Shown piece by piece: positions 8,211 through 17,355 of a stretch of 31,862 bases of DNA. Below the pieces are notes generated by a model that worked only from the letters and a program-made list of their open reading frames with translations, was not told the origin of the DNA and did no database searches. Location: positions 1-31,862 of IMG/VR virus record IMGVR_UViG_3300007558_000002; one strand, written 5' to 3'. Each line of letters opens with the position of its first letter. Positions within the stretch are counted from its first letter, which is position 1. The position numbers and the translations under genes are program-made. The stretch is from a virus.

Positions 8211-8594
8211 ATGAATAAAGAAAAGCCTGACGCTATGGAGCAAGCACTAAAAAGTGCTAAGCTAACAATGATGCCAAAGTCTGGTTACGCCTGGGGTATT
8301 TATGCCTGGAAGAAGTCAAATGGAAAGTTCTTTACAGATGGAAGCGGTAACGTTTTGAACATACCAGCTAACAAGGGTGACCAAAACCAGATTCAAAAAC
8401 TTAAGACAGCAGCAGCTCATCACGGAGAGCCAGACGGCGAGGCCGTATTCTTTCCTGGTACTGAAAGAATTAGCGATGAAGAGTACTCAGAACAGATTGA
8501 CAGAATGAAGCAGGGACTTATCCCTAGCATGAATGACGTTGGTGCACTTCTTGCTGCTAAGAAGAGTCTTGATGCCTATGGAGATGAGGGATAA
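8211..8594 (+). CDS. Unknown 127-aa phage protein preceding the portal
   Basis: I chose the ATG at 8211 rather than the in-frame ATG at 8163. The earlier start would overlap the preceding gene by 31 bases and lacks a ribosome site, whereas 8211 follows a good promoter at leaderless distance. The product is soluble, with no membrane segment. It has an aromatic motif, SGYAWGIYAWKKSNGKFFTD, a Gln/Lys-rich helix, a HHGEPDGEAVFFPG segment, and an acidic-basic helical C-terminus. I do not recognise the family. Its stop overlaps the portal start (TAATG), so it is translationally coupled to the portal and may assist portal or head assembly. That role is inferred from position only. Confidence 0.75.
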   Translation: MNKEKPDAMEQALKSAKLTMMPKSGYAWGIYAWKKSNGKFFTDGSGNVLNIPANKGDQNQIQKLKTAAAHHGEPDGEAVFFPGTERISDEEYSEQIDRMKQGLIPSMNDVGALLAAKKSLDAYGDEG

Positions 8595-10192
8595 TGTCAG
8601 AATACATTATTAATGCAAGAATGGGCGAGTTTGACCCAGAGCCAAACGAATTTAAAGCAAAGGATCCATTTAATAAGTCTTGGGATACACTAAAGACTCT
8701 TGGTGGGATAGATTCTAACTTTAAGCGTAGAGCTACCAGAATTTCTAAGGCTGTTGCTGTAGAGCCAACAGATAGATATCTTACATCTGCTGGTGCCATC
8801 AAGACTGGTGAGGGTGCTAGCTCAAAGGAGATCAATCCTGGTTCTGTTTATCACAATGGTTACGGAATGTTTGATGTCATTACGCCACCATGGAACCTTT
8901 ACGAACTGGCAAACTTTTATGACACTTCGTTTGCAAACCACGCAGCTATTGACGCTAAGGTTGAAAACATTGTCGGTCTTGGCTATGACTTTAGCATTGG
9001 CAAGAGAGCACTAATGCAGCTTGAGTCAAATACAAATGAGACTGCAACTCAAAAGGCACGAAAGCGTATTGAGAGGGCACGACTAGAGTTGACAGAGTGG
9101 CTAGAGAGTCTTAATCAGGACGACTCGATCACACACACCCTAATGAAATTTTTTACAGACGTACAGGCAACGGGCAACGGATATCTTGAAGTGGGACGAA
9201 AGACTAACGGTGAAATTGGTTACCTAGGTCACATACCTGCTACAACAATGCGTGTCCGTAGACTCAGAGATGGATATGTTCAGATCATTGGTCAGAAGGT
9301 TGTTTACTTTAGAAACTTCGGGGCAAAGAATCAGAATCCTATCACTACTGACCCAAGGCCAAATGAGATTCTTCACTATAAGGAATATTCTCCACTAAAC
9401 ACGTTCTATGGTATTCCAGATATTATGTCTGCTATTTCATCTCTACAGGGAGATCAGCTAGCCAGCCAGTACAATATTGACTACTTTGCAAATAAAGCAA
9501 CTCCTAGGTACATCGTAACTCTAAAAGGTGCAAAGCTATCTGGAGATGCAGAAGATAAGCTATTCAGATTTTTACAGACAAGTCTTAAGGGACAGTCTCA
9601 CAGAACCCTCTACATTCCTTTGCCAGGAGACTCAGATACCAACAAGGTAGAGTTTAACATGGAGCCAATCGAGAATGGTGTTCAAGAGGCATCCTTTAAT
9701 GAGTACAGGCTTCGTAACCGTGACGATATTCTTGTTGCCCATCAGGTTCCGCTATCTAAGATTGGTGGTGCAGATGCATCATCTATTGCATCAGCCTTGG
9801 CTCAAGATAGGACATTCAAAGAGCAGGTAGCAAGACCAGCACAGACAAATCTTGAAAAGATGATTAATAAGGTTGTTCGTGAAAAGACAGACTTGCTAGA
9901 GTTTAAGTTTAATGAGCTCACTCTTACAGATGAAATTGCACAGTCTCAGATCCTTGAGAGGTATATCAAGACCCAGGTCATGACACCCAATGAGGCTAGA
10001 GAGGCTCTAGGTATGCCTCAGAGGTCTGGAGGGGATGAAGTCTTTGATATGTCTCCAAGACAATCTACTGATGCAAGAGCAAACTTAGCTGGAAACAGAC
10101 AGCGAGATGCAGAGAGAACTAATAATCAATCAGATGGATCTGCAACTGTTTCTGGTCGTAACGCACAGGGTGAAGGAAATTCTTCAGAATAA
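8594..10192 (+). CDS. Portal protein
   Basis: The 532-residue protein forms the dodecameric ring at the capsid vertex through which DNA enters and leaves. The core matches the phage_portal family (PBSX/HK97-like). It includes a TGNGYLEVGRKTNGEIGYLGH wing, HYKEYSPLNTFYGIPDIMS near residue 265-278, QLASQYNIDYFANKATPRYIV, and HQVPLSKIGG followed by a helical crown ending in MTPNEAREALGMP. Length is in the usual range. The C-terminal 40 residues are polar and disordered-looking (Asn/Gln/Ser/Gly-rich). It begins with a TAATG overlap with the preceding gene and GAGGG 3 bases upstream. A hairpin plus T-run directly after the stop suggests transcription ends here. No terminase gene adjoins it in this window. 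Confidence 0.93.
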   Translation: MSEYIINARMGEFDPEPNEFKAKDPFNKSWDTLKTLGGIDSNFKRRATRISKAVAVEPTDRYLTSAGAIKTGEGASSKEINPGSVYHNGYGMFDVITPPWNLYELANFYDTSFANHAAIDAKVENIVGLGYDFSIGKRALMQLESNTNETATQKARKRIERARLELTEWLESLNQDDSITHTLMKFFTDVQATGNGYLEVGRKTNGEIGYLGHIPATTMRVRRLRDGYVQIIGQKVVYFRNFGAKNQNPITTDPRPNEILHYKEYSPLNTFYGIPDIMSAISSLQGDQLASQYNIDYFANKATPRYIVTLKGAKLSGDAEDKLFRFLQTSLKGQSHRTLYIPLPGDSDTNKVEFNMEPIENGVQEASFNEYRLRNRDDILVAHQVPLSKIGGADASSIASALAQDRTFKEQVARPAQTNLEKMINKVVREKTDLLEFKFNELTLTDEIAQSQILERYIKTQVMTPNEAREALGMPQRSGGDEVFDMSPRQSTDARANLAGNRQRDAERTNNQSDGSATVSGRNAQGEGNSSE

Positions 10193-10215
10193 AGTTACCA
10201 TTTCGTAACTTTTTT
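10191..10215 (+). terminator. Rho-independent terminator after portal
   Basis: AAAGTTAC at 10191-10198 pairs with GTAACTTT at 10205-10212 around a six-base loop, and the T-run continues to 10215. The stem is AT-rich and modest, but perfect, and it overlaps the last bases of the portal stop codon. Confidence 0.55.
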
Positions 10216-10228
10216 ATAAAAGAGGGTA

Positions 10229-10234
10229 TATAAT
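10229..10234 (+). promoter_or_regulatory. -10 box TATAAT of the capsid unit (near-leaderless)
   Basis: A perfect TATAAT, without the TG extension and with no strong -35, lies between the terminator after the portal and the protease-scaffold gene. Its last base is 8 bases before the ATG at 10243, so the transcript would have a leader of about 0-2 bases. No ribosome site sits at a usable distance. Confidence 0.55.
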
Positions 10235-10242
10235 AAACTAGT

Positions 10243-11619
10243 ATGACTATTTCGAAAACGCAGTTAGTTACAGACGGTGACAACGTACGTCTGTCAATGC
10301 CTTTTAGCAAGGTAGACAAAGAGAGACGCATCGTCTCAGGATTTGCTACGCTTGATAACGTAGATAGACAAGATGACATTGTAACCACAGAGGCATCAAT
10401 CAGTGCCTTCTCAAAGTTTCGTGGGAACATTCGTGAAATGCACCAGCCACTAGCAGTCGGCAAAATGGTAGCATTTAAAGAAGAGAAATACTTTGATCCA
10501 GAATCCAAGAAGTTCTTCTCTGGAGTATATGTATCTGCATATGTTTCAAAAGGTGCACAAGACACCTGGGAAAAGGTTCTTGATGGAACCCTATCTGGCT
10601 TTTCTATTGGCGGTCGCATGAATGAGTGGGACGACGCTTATGACGAGAAGATGGAAAAGCAAATTAGAGTTATTAAAGAATATGACCTAGTAGAGCTGTC
10701 CTTAGTAGACACTCCAGCTAATCAATTTGCAAACATTATGTCTATCGAAAAGGTGGACGGCGTTGACGTCGTAAAGGGCGATGCATTTGATGTAGAGATT
10801 GAAAATGTTTTTTGGGATAATGAGTCTGGCATGGTAATGGTATCGGCAGAAGACTCAGCCGTAAGTCCAGTAAATGGCAATGCTATGAAGAACATAGGTT
10901 TCGTTGAAAAGAATGACAACGAGAAAACAGAAATGATAAAGTTCTTAGTTGATAGTGCTAAAGGCATTAATCTTTCTAAGATGAACAAGGAGGAAGATCC
11001 TATGACTGAAGAAAACACAAATGCAGCAGAAGACGCTGTAGTTGAGAAATCAGACGAGATCGCTCCAGAGGCAGATGCCGTAGTTGAGGCTGCAGACTCC
11101 GCAATGGAGAAGGCAGACGACGCTGAGGTTGTCAAGACAGACGACATGGATGAAGACGACATGGAGGAGAAGGCTGATGAAGCCGATGCCACTGAGAAGT
11201 CAGCTGATATGGAGGAAGAGGACAAGTCTTATGAAGACAAGAAGTCTGATTCTGTTGAGGCAGCTGAAGAGGTATCTAAGTCAGACGATGTTTCTGTCGC
11301 TGTTGCTGAATTGCAGAGCGGTATTACATCAGCCTTTAGCGATCTTTCAGCAGTTATTAAGTCTCTTAACGAGCAAGTTGCTGATCTTAAGAAGTCACTC
11401 GATGGTGCCAATGCAGAGATTAAGTCCGTAAAGGACGAGGTTACTGCATCCAAGAGTGAGTTTAACGAATTTGGCAAGCGAGTAGATGCTGTTGAGGCAG
11501 ACACCGCTTTCCGTAAATCTGGCGATCTAGGCGAGATTGTTCAGGAAACTGAATCAGATATGGTTCAGAAATCCCTATGGGGCGGTCGTTTCCTCAAAAC
11601 TGCCGACTTATTTAATTAA
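10243..11619 (+). CDS. Fused prohead protease (S78-like) and scaffold protein
   Basis: This 458-residue protein combines two functions often encoded separately. Residues 1-170 are a HK97-type prohead serine protease: RRIVSGFATLDNVDRQDDIV, catalytic H67 in REMHQP, catalytic S121 in LSGFSIGG, and the EYDLVELSLVDTPAN strand. It cleaves scaffold and capsid termini in the assembled prohead. Residues 250-335 are extremely acidic and repetitive (Glu/Asp/Ala with Lys-Ser). Residues about 350-425 have heptad-like spacing typical of scaffold coiled coils, and the C-terminus (GGRFLKTADLFN) may bind the capsid protein. The start lacks a ribosome site and follows a -10 box at leaderless distance. An internal AAGGAGGA precedes the in-frame Met254, suggesting separate scaffold synthesis. 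The major capsid gene follows after 29 bases. Confidence 0.9.
   Translation: MTISKTQLVTDGDNVRLSMPFSKVDKERRIVSGFATLDNVDRQDDIVTTEASISAFSKFRGNIREMHQPLAVGKMVAFKEEKYFDPESKKFFSGVYVSAYVSKGAQDTWEKVLDGTLSGFSIGGRMNEWDDAYDEKMEKQIRVIKEYDLVELSLVDTPANQFANIMSIEKVDGVDVVKGDAFDVEIENVFWDNESGMVMVSAEDSAVSPVNGNAMKNIGFVEKNDNEKTEMIKFLVDSAKGINLSKMNKEEDPMTEENTNAAEDAVVEKSDEIAPEADAVVEAADSAMEKADDAEVVKTDDMDEDDMEEKADEADATEKSADMEEEDKSYEDKKSDSVEAAEEVSKSDDVSVAVAELQSGITSAFSDLSAVIKSLNEQVADLKKSLDGANAEIKSVKDEVTASKSEFNEFGKRVDAVEADTAFRKSGDLGEIVQETESDMVQKSLWGGRFLKTADLFN
10987..10994 (+). promoter_or_regulatory. Internal ribosome site for a nested scaffold start
   Basis: AAGGAGGA lies within the protease-scaffold gene, with GGAGG 8 bases before an in-frame ATG at 11002. 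It is better than the ribosome sites of most genes here, whereas the full-length start has none. Confidence 0.6.
11002..11619 (+). CDS. Probable nested scaffold protein (internal start at Met254)
   Basis: Initiation at the in-frame ATG at 11002 would yield a 205-residue protein identical to the C-terminal part of the protease-scaffold fusion: the acidic Glu/Asp/Ala-rich segment, the helical heptad region and the C-terminal FLKTADLFN. The start falls exactly at the boundary between the protease module and the scaffold module, and it has a near-perfect ribosome site. The precedent is lambda gene C/Nu3, where a scaffold is made from an internal start in the protease gene so that scaffold far outnumbers protease. 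Arginine codons in this part are all CGN (three of three), as in the abundant capsid protein. The start is inferred, not proven. Confidence 0.55.
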   Translation: MTEENTNAAEDAVVEKSDEIAPEADAVVEAADSAMEKADDAEVVKTDDMDEDDMEEKADEADATEKSADMEEEDKSYEDKKSDSVEAAEEVSKSDDVSVAVAELQSGITSAFSDLSAVIKSLNEQVADLKKSLDGANAEIKSVKDEVTASKSEFNEFGKRVDAVEADTAFRKSGDLGEIVQETESDMVQKSLWGGRFLKTADLFN

Positions 11620-11635
11620 GACAAAACAATCACTT

Positions 11636-11644
11636 AGGAGGTGA
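11636..11644 (+). promoter_or_regulatory. Strong ribosome binding site of the major capsid gene
   Basis: AGGAGGTGA is fully complementary to the anti-Shine-Dalgarno end of 16S rRNA and ends 4 bases before the ATG. It is one of the strongest sites in the window, as expected for the most abundant virion protein. Confidence 0.8.
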
Positions 11645-11648
11645 CAAT

Positions 11649-12782
11649 ATGTCGGAAGAGATTATCAAAAATCAGCCAGGTGAAACTGGTGAGCTAGGTG
11701 GAACAGCACCTGGTACATTCCAAGGTCAGGGTGCATTCGCATCTGGTGGTATTGGTGGTGTGACTGACCCAGGTGCAAGCACATTGGGCAACATTCCAAC
11801 AGCCGAGTATGGCCTAACATCTGGTGGTAACGCTGTAAACCCTTCTGGTGATGCAGGTAGTGGTATCCTACGCCCTGAACAGGCACGTCGTTTTATTGAC
11901 TACGTATGGGATGCAACTGTACTCGCCAAAGATGGTCGCAGAGTTACTATGCGTGCAAACACCATGGAGCTCGAGAAGGTCAATGTTGGAGAGAGGGTTA
12001 TCCGTGCAGCTGCACAAGCTGTCGGTGACTACACCAACACTGGTGCTCAGTTTACCAAGGTTGAGCTAACAACAAAGAAGATCCGTTTGGACTGGGAGGT
12101 CTCAGCTGAGGCCCTAGAAGATGGCGTCGAGGGTGCAGCCCTTGAGGACCACCTAGTACGCTTGATGACAAATGCTTTTGCAAATGACATCGAGGACCTA
12201 GCAATTAACGGTGATGGATCTACAGGAGACTTCCTGTCGATCATGGATGGATTTGTCAACAAGGCAAAGACTGGTGGAGCACACGAGTCAGTCGTAACTG
12301 TTGCAAACAATGCATGGACCCCAGAGGTTATGCAGAACATCATCCTAGCCATGCCACGTAAGTACCGTGCAATCAAGAACAACCTTAAGTTCTATGCAGG
12401 TACAGACGTATTCCAGGGCATCGTAAAGAACAACGGAACCCTTGCAGACGCTATTGCTGAGGCCTTTGGCTCTCACCCAGGTGCTGCAGGAACACCAGCA
12501 GGTCGTGAAGCCTACCTAGGCGGAAGCGGTCAGACATTCGGTGGTGCTCGCACTACCCGTGTTCTAGGTGTTGAGGTCCAGGAAGTTCCTTACTACCCAG
12601 CTGGCTACATCGACCTGACATTCCCACAGAACCGTGTATGGGGATTCCAGCGAGACATCACAGTAAACCGTGAATACAAGGCCAAGAAGGACACCATTGA
12701 ATACACCGTATTCGTCCGCTTCGGCATCCAGTGGGAAGAGGAAGACGCTATTGCATTTGCGGATGCAGCAGCTGACGCTTAA
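11649..12782 (+). CDS. Major capsid protein (HK97 fold)
   Basis: This 377-residue protein builds the icosahedral shell. Residues 1-71 are Gly/Ser/Thr-rich and probably flexible. From residue 72 the HK97-like body begins with GILRPEQARRFIDYVW, then a likely E-loop and beta region (VNVGERVIRAAAQAVG) and strand-helix (KKIRLDWEVSAEALEDGVEG). The spine helix is HLVRLMTNAFANDIEDLAINGD, and a late beta strand set (RVLGVEVQEVPYYP) leads into FPQNRVWGFQRDITVNREY. Length is normal for the family. It follows the protease-scaffold gene on the same likely transcript and is followed by a terminator. Seventeen of its 19 arginine codons are CGN, unlike many neighbours, consistent with very high expression. 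The N-terminal arm could be trimmed by the protease; no cleavage site can be read off directly. Confidence 0.93.
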   Translation: MSEEIIKNQPGETGELGGTAPGTFQGQGAFASGGIGGVTDPGASTLGNIPTAEYGLTSGGNAVNPSGDAGSGILRPEQARRFIDYVWDATVLAKDGRRVTMRANTMELEKVNVGERVIRAAAQAVGDYTNTGAQFTKVELTTKKIRLDWEVSAEALEDGVEGAALEDHLVRLMTNAFANDIEDLAINGDGSTGDFLSIMDGFVNKAKTGGAHESVVTVANNAWTPEVMQNIILAMPRKYRAIKNNLKFYAGTDVFQGIVKNNGTLADAIAEAFGSHPGAAGTPAGREAYLGGSGQTFGGARTTRVLGVEVQEVPYYPAGYIDLTFPQNRVWGFQRDITVNREYKAKKDTIEYTVFVRFGIQWEEEDAIAFADAAADA

Positions 12783-12802
12783 TCCAACTGAATAACCTTG
12801 AG

Positions 12803-12840
12803 AGGGGCAGGGGCTATCTGGCCTCTGTCCCTTTCATTTT
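12803..12840 (+). terminator. Rho-independent terminator after major capsid gene
   Basis: AGGGGCAG (12803-12810) pairs with CTGTCCCT (12825-12832) with one G-U pair. Further GC pairing inside the loop (GGGC with GGCC) is possible. A T-rich tract, TTCATTTT, follows. This would close the protease-scaffold-capsid transcript. Confidence 0.7.
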
Positions 12841-12844
12841 TATC

Positions 12845-12853
12845 TGCTATAAT
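12845..12853 (+). promoter_or_regulatory. Extended -10 promoter TGCTATAAT
   Basis: The perfect extended -10 box follows directly after the capsid terminator and precedes the next gene by 24 bases. The expected leader would carry the strong AGGAGGAG site at 12868-12875. No -35 is apparent. Confidence 0.65.
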
Positions 12854-12877
12854 ATTAAAAGAACCTTAGGAGGAGAA

Positions 12878-13336
12878 ATGGCAGAGTTTAACCCAGAAGC
12901 CACAGATGGTGATGGAGACGGATTTGTCCAGGACGGAACAGAGTTTGAGCGTCCAGTGGAAGAAGTTTCTGTAGAGCCAGAAGTTGCAGAAGAGCCAGCT
13001 GTAGAGCTAGCTGAAGAAGTAAAGGGAGATGAAGTTATTTCATCCCCAGAGCGTCCAGTAGACGCAGAGCCAGTAGAGCAGGCCCTAGCACCAGTTGCTG
13101 ACGGAGTCATCGGAACTGGCACAAAGAAGAAGCCAGCAAAGAAGAAGCCAGCTGCAAAGCAGGCATCTGACAAGGAAGAGACTGTAGCACTATACTCAAC
13201 ACGTAATGTAACTTGGGTTGGTGTGGGTAGAGTCCTAACTGGACTTAATCTAGTTCCAAAGTCTCAGGCAGACAAGTGGATTGGACGAGACCACATTCGT
13301 GTAGCTGATGCTGCCGAGGTATCCAAGGAGCTTTAA
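12878..13336 (+). CDS. Post-capsid structural protein with DxDxDG motif and acidic linker
   Basis: The 152-residue protein starts after AGGAGGAG. Residues 9-16 (TDGDGDGF), with D10, D12 and D14 followed by Gly, form a calcium-loop-like DxDxDG motif, then VQDGTEFERP. Residues 25-75 are Glu/Val/Pro/Ala-rich and acidic. Residues about 80-95 form a Lys/Pro/Ala-rich basic stretch (KKKPAKKKPAAK). Residues about 102-152 are a small folded-looking domain with LYSTRNVTWVGVGRV, GLNLV, ADKWIGRDHIRVA. I recall similar N- and C-terminal segments in actinophage genes next to the capsid gene, but no firm function. A capsid-associated or head-tail role is likely from position. Five of six arginine codons are CGN, suggesting it may be abundant, perhaps a decoration protein. 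Confidence 0.8.
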   Translation: MAEFNPEATDGDGDGFVQDGTEFERPVEEVSVEPEVAEEPAVELAEEVKGDEVISSPERPVDAEPVEQALAPVADGVIGTGTKKKPAKKKPAAKQASDKEETVALYSTRNVTWVGVGRVLTGLNLVPKSQADKWIGRDHIRVADAAEVSKEL

Positions 13337-13342
13337 GCTATA

Positions 13343-14224
13343 ATGGAAATACTGAGAGTTCCGCCATATGATGTTGTAGAAGCAACACTTACTATACCGA
13401 CTGGGTTTTCTAGTCAAACGTTTACTGCTTCAATTACAGATATGGCGGATCTTTCTGTATCCACTCAAGAGTTTTCTGGTGAGTCTGGAGAAGAGTTTTC
13501 TATTAGCTTGAGTGCTAAGTATGATAACAATTACTACATTGAGATCACCACTGCAGACGGAGCAATTGTAATTCACGATACATATGAGGTAGTTAGGCCA
13601 TACGTTCTTGCAGTCAATAAAGCAACAACAGCTTCTGAAATAGCTGCCTATGCTGCCAATGAGGAATTAGCCAGGGCAGTTATTGACTCAGTCATTCCAG
13701 ATGGATTCTATTACCAAAAAAAGACCCTAGAGGTTCCTGGTAATGGTACAGACTTTCTTCCAGTATGGGATAGAGTCATCAAGGTTAACGAAGTTTATGA
13801 AAACAACGTTCTGGTAACTGACAGAACTTTTGCAATGTCAAAGGATAAAACAGCCATTGTGGTTGTTGTAGAGGGAACAGACAACAGATCAGAAGGTGCA
13901 CCAATTATGTTGCCTGCAGCAGCCTCTGATAGCGGAGTTGTAGGATACACATATCTAGACTTTCCAAAGAGAAATGACTACAGGGTTGTAGTTGATCATG
14001 GATACCCAACGGTACCGTCCGATATCGTAAAGGCAACAGAGCTACTGATTAATGATATTGAGTGTGGAAAGCTAGAGTACTATAAGAGGTACGTAACAAG
14101 CTACAACACTGACCAGTTTAAGATTCAGTTCGACAAGGCTATTTTTGAAGGTACTGGAAACCTAATTGTAGATAAGATTTTATCCAAGTACCACAAGTCA
14201 ATCACCAAACTTGGAGTGTTATAA
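13343..14224 (+). CDS. Head-tail connector (adaptor) protein
   Basis: The 293-residue protein begins six bases after the preceding gene. AGGAG at 13325-13329 lies in the end of that gene. The N-terminal 100 residues are beta-rich (VVEATLTIPTGF, FTASITDMADLSV). The C-terminal region carries the strongest clue: VPSDIVKATELLINDIECGK, LEYYKRYVTSYNTDQFKI, FEGTGNLIVDKILSKY. This helical pattern is typical of adaptor proteins of the HK97 gp6/SPP1 gp15 type that bind under the portal ring. Position as the second gene after the capsid, before a head-closure-like gene, fits the conserved siphovirus order. The extra N-terminal beta domain makes it much longer than the classical ~100-residue adaptor. Confidence 0.75.
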   Translation: MEILRVPPYDVVEATLTIPTGFSSQTFTASITDMADLSVSTQEFSGESGEEFSISLSAKYDNNYYIEITTADGAIVIHDTYEVVRPYVLAVNKATTASEIAAYAANEELARAVIDSVIPDGFYYQKKTLEVPGNGTDFLPVWDRVIKVNEVYENNVLVTDRTFAMSKDKTAIVVVVEGTDNRSEGAPIMLPAAASDSGVVGYTYLDFPKRNDYRVVVDHGYPTVPSDIVKATELLINDIECGKLEYYKRYVTSYNTDQFKIQFDKAIFEGTGNLIVDKILSKYHKSITKLGVL

Positions 14225-16674: not shown

Positions 16675-17355
16675 ATGGCCAATAAAGTGTATGAGAGCTC
16701 TACTGTAGAGTTAATTGACGGAACCCAGATTTATATTACCCCACTAAAGATATTTTACCTAAGAGATTTTATGTCTAAGTTTTCAGAAATAGAAAATGCA
16801 TCCACAGAAGATGAAAAGATAGATGTTCTCATTGAGTGCGTTGCCTTTGCTATGAATCAGTTTAGACCAGAGATAGCATCCCCAGAATTAGTAGCTGATA
16901 GTATGGACATAAAAACGATGTATAAGGTTGTAGAAATTGCTGGAGGAATCTCCTTTTCAGAGAAAGCCGAGAGTGGCTCCAAGCCAGTTGGTGAAGGCTC
17001 TGGCTCTAGCTGGGAAGAACTAGATTTAGTTAAGCTAGAATCAAAAGCATTTTTGTTGGGAATCTGGAAAGACTTCTATGAGCTAGAGACCTCAATCTCC
17101 ATGCCAGAGCTTATTGCAATATTGGAGTCTAAGAGCGAATCAGACTATGCTGATAAGAAGTTTCTTGCAGCTATCCAGGGGGTAGACTTGGAGAAGGATC
17201 AAGGTAGACAGGATGAGTGGACAAAGCTAAAGGAAAAGGTGTTCGGCCCAAAGAAGACAGAGGAGCAGGAAAACGATGTCACGTCACTGACAGGTAAGAA
17301 GGCTGCCGATGCTGGATTTGGCATTGGAATGGGGCTTTCCTACGAGAAACTCTAG
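16675..17355 (+). CDS. Tail assembly chaperone, long form (G-T type)
   Basis: The 226-residue protein has an N-terminal domain (1-95) that closely matches the next gene's product, including LIDGT, PLKI, LRDF, KF and CV-xx-AM-xQ. Its C-terminal extension runs SSWEELDLVKLESKAFLLGIW, MPELIAILESK and KKFLAAIQGVD, and ends KAADAGFGIGMGLSYEKL. That pattern matches the T extension of siphophage chaperones normally made by a -1 frameshift. Here the full long form is one uninterrupted frame. The start is confirmed by alignment with the paralog. It lacks a usable ribosome site, and all three arginine codons are AGA, both suggesting low output. Such chaperones bind the tape measure protein and recruit tube subunits. 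Confidence 0.85.
   Translation: MANKVYESSTVELIDGTQIYITPLKIFYLRDFMSKFSEIENASTEDEKIDVLIECVAFAMNQFRPEIASPELVADSMDIKTMYKVVEIAGGISFSEKAESGSKPVGEGSGSSWEELDLVKLESKAFLLGIWKDFYELETSISMPELIAILESKSESDYADKKFLAAIQGVDLEKDQGRQDEWTKLKEKVFGPKKTEEQENDVTSLTGKKAADAGFGIGMGLSYEKL

Follow-up and report, generated by a model that had tools for sequence, protein, structure and literature searches.

A conserved internal start in a phage prohead protease gene and its probable use for making a separate scaffold protein

In phage T4, the prohead protease gp21 and the scaffold gp22 are encoded by separate genes. In herpesviruses (UL26/UL26.5), an assemblin-fold protease is followed by a nested scaffold that shares its C-terminus, and the UL26.5 scaffold is made from a nested mRNA. 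The P2 protein gpO makes its shorter product through self-cleavage. Lambda C is a ClpP-like protease. According to PMC8508860, which cites Shaw and Murialdo (1980), the genes for lambda C and Nu3 overlap; in the same paper, the protease of the lambda-like phage MD8 is modelled on ClpP. In Mu (I/Z) and the PaMx73 group, a single protease-scaffold gene carries an in-frame internal start with a Shine-Dalgarno sequence (SD) about 8-9 nt away (PMC4378225). The PaMx73 internal start is Val177, and the passage describing these genes mentions no leaderless outer start (PMC4378225).

Here we analysed a viral DNA sequence of 31,862 nucleotides (IMG/VR record IMGVR_UViG_3300007558_000002), hereafter the window, in which a 458-residue reading frame combines an S78-type prohead protease, a disordered linker and an acidic coiled-coil tail (Table 1). 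The portal gene lies 5' and the capsid gene 3' of this frame. PHROG 9427 (head maturation protease) matched residues 1-455 at 1.6e-113, and both protease and scaffold-like modules were found in the single frame by Pfam, PHROG and an AF2 model. The model, computed from 46 homologues, had a mean pLDDT of 65 and a pTM of 0.37, so that its domain packing is not trustworthy. It contained an ordered part (residues ~7-239, with one weak stretch), a disordered segment (residues 241-347) and, after this linker, one helix (residues 348-426). Met254, which the initial annotation had proposed as a second start between the protease and scaffold modules, was indeed located in the disordered linker, just past the last ordered N-terminal element, which stops at residue 239. 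This kind of arrangement is already known; new are its occurrence in this large family of tailed viruses, which are related to actinobacterial phages, the type of protease, the RNA helix and the conserved outer start with its putatively leaderless mRNA.

Table 1. Positions of the features described at the protease-scaffold locus (window coordinates)
Feature	Position	Strand	Basis or remark
Inverted repeat AAAGTTAC-CATTTC-GTAACTTT and T tract, portal/protease intergenic	10191..10212 (region 10183-10220)	+	Sequence, repeat search
TATAAT -10 box of a putative leaderless promoter, 8 nt from the full-length ATG	10229..10234	+	Conserved in relatives
Full-length protease-scaffold ORF	10243..11619	+	ATG start, without SD; Pfam and PHROG matches
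Protease domain, residues 11-157; invariant His67, Ser121 (GFSIGG)	10273..10713	+	Alignments, AF2 model, gp21 match
RNA block A GCTAAAGGC, 37-45 nt before internal ATG	10957..10965	+	Exact reverse complement of part of C
Internal Shine-Dalgarno AAGGAGG	10987..10993	+	Sequence; conserved in relatives
Internal start codon ATG (Met254)	11002..11004	+	ATG/GTG in 196/196 distinct complete relatives
Candidate nested scaffold ORF, 205 aa, acidic (59 D/E, 22 K/R)	11002..11619	+	Sequence
RNA block B GATCGCTCCAGAGGC, forming the 5' side of the long-range B:C helix	11058..11072	+	Frozen codons, covariation
Long helix, residues 348-426, coiled coil	11284..11520	+	AF2 model
RNA block C GCCTTTAGCGATC, forming the 3' side of B:C and possibly, as an alternative, of A:C	11332..11344	+	Frozen codons, covariation
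Conserved C-terminal motif KSLWGGRFL	11569..11595	+	Alignments; candidate capsid-binding tail
Major capsid protein gene, next downstream	11649..12782	+	Strong SD; PHROG 1623 2e-72, phrog_10 major head protein 1.9e-09

The protease part was assigned from profiles and from the model. The Pfam Peptidase_S78 profile scored 31.9 bits on residues 105-168, against a curated cut-off of 21, and also exceeded the cut-off in L134, L199, Faust and Weasels2. A Foldseek search of the model against the PDB gave no match below E 0.001; in a second structure comparison, the modelled protease part matched T4 gp21 (5jbl_A) with a Z of 12.7 over 131 aligned residues (rmsd 2.9). The next structural matches were the VZV and HCMV proteases, with Z scores of 6.9 and 6.4, which as values below 8 are merely suggestive when taken alone. 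His67 and Ser121 were invariant in 52 and 46 aligned homologues and, by analogy with known proteases, are the putative catalytic residues. The modelled protease is thus S78/T4 gp21-like with an assemblin-like fold. In some Streptomyces and Rhodococcus relatives (L082, L083, L084, L089 and others), zinc-ribbon-like CxxC pairs lie between the protease core and the linker; they are absent from the window.

The likeness to lambda C/Nu3 suggested by the initial annotation held for the gene arrangement, as in both cases the scaffold gene overlaps the 3' part of the protease gene (for lambda, PMC8508860). It did not extend to the protease. Whereas lambda C is ClpP-like, the window protease is a Peptidase_S78 member with a predicted T4 gp21 fold, and the lambda C family was rejected here, no such Pfam match being found up to E 1. 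Mu I/Z offers a parallel that is no less apt (PMC4378225). Mu I/Z and PaMx73 belong to another phage group, and we found no sequence relation between them and the window gene. A T4/herpes-type protease joined to a nested scaffold would represent the herpes layout in a phage, with the difference that herpesviruses use a nested mRNA, whereas the window gene has an internal SD, presumably on one mRNA.

The internal start was first evident in the window itself. The motif AAGGAGGA occupies 10987-10994, and its GGAGG core ends 8 nt 5' of the ATG at in-frame codon 254. The SD, the in-frame Met254 and the 205-residue product had all been placed correctly by the initial annotation. Among the 10,296 coding codons of the window, Met254 was the sole in-frame ATG or GTG with a 7-nt SD match. 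When synonymous codons were shuffled with the protein kept unchanged, this match survived in 38% of cases; when the codon order was shuffled, a 7-nt SD arose somewhere in 17%. SD-like sequence is favoured by the Lys/Glu-rich codons. Judged from the window alone, the internal SD and ATG are therefore mildly unusual and prove little. A chance origin, compatible with the window sequence, was ruled out by conservation among relatives.

Relatives were collected in five scans of viral contigs (L002-L081, L096-L202 and L203-L282; some contigs were fetched repeatedly), and 12 named phages read from annotated records were added. The sample consists mostly of uncultured contigs picked through similarity to a few queries. 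An SD with ATG or GTG was present at the protease/scaffold junction in 196 of 196 distinct complete genes, a count that does not represent independent trials because the relatives share ancestry; the ATG/GTG switches of the internal start, at least 13 on the tree, are the better measure. The start codon was ATG in 149 genes and GTG in 47, and a search for protease-scaffold fusions without an internal start found none among these genes. Pairwise identity of the protease parts went down to 33%. When in-frame ATG/GTG codons were ranked by anti-SD pairing, the junction site came first in all 196 genes (mean -13.4 kcal/mol, versus -6.9 for the best other site).

Two codon phases were seen for the SD. 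One reads AAG GAG G, encodes Lys-Glu and has a spacing of 8; the other reads GAA GGA GGT, encodes Glu-Gly-Gly and has a spacing of 7 or 10. In near relatives, Lys249 was encoded by AAG in 75 of 76 genes and Glu250 by GAG in 76 of 76, compared with gene-wide shares of 60% of Lys codons for AAG and 34% of Glu codons for GAG. The two phases, the interchange of ATG and GTG and the frozen synonymous codons argue for selection on nucleotides. In 152 of 168 distinct contexts, the internal start was followed directly by Ala, Ser or Thr (small residues, 0.91 right after the start versus 0.53 downstream), and this small second residue makes the internal start look like real N-termini.

The site also stays beside the scaffold module despite insertions after the protease, at codon 375 in L134 and codon 329 in L199. 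The apparent exceptions (L134, L135, L136, L140, L143, L148, L153, L170, L172, L190, L192, L195, L196 and L199) were dismissed, as their internal start is present beyond codon 300. Of the remaining irregular sequences, L120 has the internal site although its gene is 5'-truncated, L116 and L181 stop short of the site, and L168 has a weaker SD, AAGGGGGTG. The insertion in L134 (L134:3001-4617), between protease and scaffold and 5' of the internal start, contains a domain resembling TUDOR (PF11160 in Pfam; 24.5 bits against a cut-off of 24.1), and similar sequence was found in L135, L136 and L153.

These data bear on the alternative that the full-length protein is the sole primary product, in which case the internal SD and Met would be a fusion relic or a by-product of Lys-Glu codons and the protease itself would release the scaffold. 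P2 gpO provides a precedent for a shorter product arising by self-cleavage, and the 38% of synonymous shuffles that keep the site agree with this explanation as far as the window sequence goes. However, a relic would not remain the best in-frame start in 196 of 196 genes while the start codon switched at least 13 times, the SD took up two phases and large segments were inserted, and we regard this alternative as very improbable.

The outer start differs from the internal one. As the initial annotation had stated, no SD precedes the ATG at 10243. The closest stretch of purines, GAGGG, stops 16 nt from this ATG, on the 5' side of the TATAAT box. The protease-scaffold gene is among the few window genes without an SD. 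TATAAT was found 3-10 nt 5' of the ATG, mostly at 8-10 nt, in all 70 near relatives that start with ATG and whose upstream sequence was long enough, the nearer box being counted where two overlapped. Among 191 distinct upstream sequences from all clades, 190 carried TANNNT 5-10 nt 5' of the outer start (~50 expected from shuffles) and 136 carried TATAAT (3 in shuffles). A 5-nt SD-like core was present in only 14 of the 191, overlapping or right beside the -10 box. No conserved -35 box was found in the near-clade upstreams; in several Streptomyces phages inspected by eye, the -10 box lies 6 nt from the start, and a -35 box of the TTGC type precedes the -10 box by 17 nt.

With the -10 box so near the outer ATG, an SD-bearing leader cannot be accommodated, and an outer start without an SD is best explained by a leaderless mRNA. 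The full-length mRNA is thus probably leaderless or nearly so, given that a -10 box by itself is no proof of a transcription start. Streptomyces frequently produces leaderless mRNAs and translates them; in Streptomyces avermitilis, 22.2% of mRNAs are leaderless, with support from ribosome profiling (PMC8780764). The inverted repeat between the portal and protease genes, which did not appear in a terminator scan of the window, is possibly an intrinsic terminator that isolates the protease promoter, an assignment we make tentatively. Elsewhere in the window, at 16675, a TATAAT box right after a T tract lies 5 nt before an ATG with only GGAG between, and this gene is possibly another leaderless one.

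Transcription could also account for a separate scaffold if, as with herpesvirus UL26.5, it were made from its own nested transcript and the internal SD served that short mRNA. Weak promoter-like sites were found on the + strand at 10793-10821 and 10913-10942, and TATAAT boxes precede other window genes. However, such sites were at chance level in the scan (5 found, 3.1 expected), and codons 232 and 233 under 10936-10941 vary while the outer TATAAT is fixed in the near clade. This origin of the scaffold appears unlikely.

We consider it likely that one gene gives both a leaderless protease-scaffold and an SD-started 205-residue scaffold. Transcription from a promoter with its -10 box right before the outer ATG would produce a (nearly) leaderless mRNA and some full-length protein, and the linker SD on the same mRNA would direct independent synthesis of the scaffold, presumably in excess. 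The fusion would bring the protease into the prohead via the common coiled coil and C-terminal tail, and the protease would then cut the scaffold before packaging. In effect, a dosing rule within one gene is proposed, in which a leaderless start yields scarce enzyme and an SD start abundant scaffold. At the sequence level, both start signals, their near-universal conservation, the domain layout and the protease fold as modelled are established. The initial annotation was right on fact and probably right on meaning.

Position, composition and shape suggest that the nested product is a scaffold. Homologue tails end in a conserved KSxWGGRFL motif, which may be the capsid-binding tail. We also considered that the internal start is real and its product is instead a protease regulator, a chaperone or a minor head protein. 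No homology to a proven scaffold was found: a profile search of the PDB returned coiled-coil matches only, which we took as non-homologous, and the other matches were of low complexity. On the other hand, a location directly before the capsid gene, the acidic coiled coil and the conserved C-terminal tail fit a scaffold, the C-terminus is shared with the protease, and no other candidate scaffold is annotated between the protease and capsid genes in the 12 named relatives. A non-scaffold role is accordingly quite improbable.

Stanwilliamsviridae (Faust, BillNye, Daubenski and others) and the Rhodococcus phages Weasels2 and Peregrin have a homologous gene between the portal and capsid genes with the same internal SD and ATG/GTG, the SD often being in the other codon phase and paired with GTG. 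These named relatives annotate the gene solely as a capsid or head maturation protease, without a scaffold gene, and we found no report of a nested scaffold in these phages in the open-access subset of the literature. Our results thus point to a candidate unannotated scaffold gene in a large actinobacterial phage family that takes in Stanwilliamsviridae and large siphophages of Rhodococcus as well as uncultured contigs in the hundreds.

Within the clade of the window, four blocks showed frozen synonymous sites: codons 238-241 (A), 274-277 (B), 364-366 (C) and 443-447 (D). Just downstream of the internal start, blocks B and C form a predicted helix of 13 pairs, interrupted by a 2-nt bulge. Pairing was preserved in 95% of cells (28 distinct rows, 115 sequences), compared with 27-53% when the strands were slid, and none of 500 shuffles reached this level. 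At the pair 273.3-367.1, 85 sequences had C-G, 21 had U-A and 9 had U-G, and none had a mismatch; as the U-A form is confined to one group of relatives, there were perhaps three or four independent double changes overall. Mean predicted pairing was 0.66 for B:C and 0.12 for A:C, and since block A is nearly invariant, the 10-pair A:C helix is only possible. The exact A and C motifs were absent from 82 far sequences, indicating that the RNA element is lineage-limited, and no Rfam family reached threshold across window 8500-13500.

That the B:C helix helps set the internal start is a guess. A switch in which C pairs exclusively with B (13 pairs, covariation) or with A (10 pairs), tuning scaffold:protease initiation during infection, seems rather doubtful. 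Pairing of block B with the 3' end (~11569-11583) had the best duplex energy in the window but was rejected, its mean pairing probability being 0.02 in 58 sequences. The same segment, block D (11569-11583), has the codons AAA TCC CTA TGG GGC frozen synonymously in near and intermediate relatives, and no convincing pairing partner was found for it.

Two further window features were recorded. An acidic protein encoded after the capsid gene (12878-13336) has at its start a DGDGDGFVQDGTEFERP motif that looks like an EF-hand loop; it had no Pfam match and a weak match to PHROG 7924. The C-terminal part of the protein encoded at 266-1111 consists of PFxFVPFGNF-type repeat units, whose DNA is likewise free of stops in other frames and on the opposite strand.
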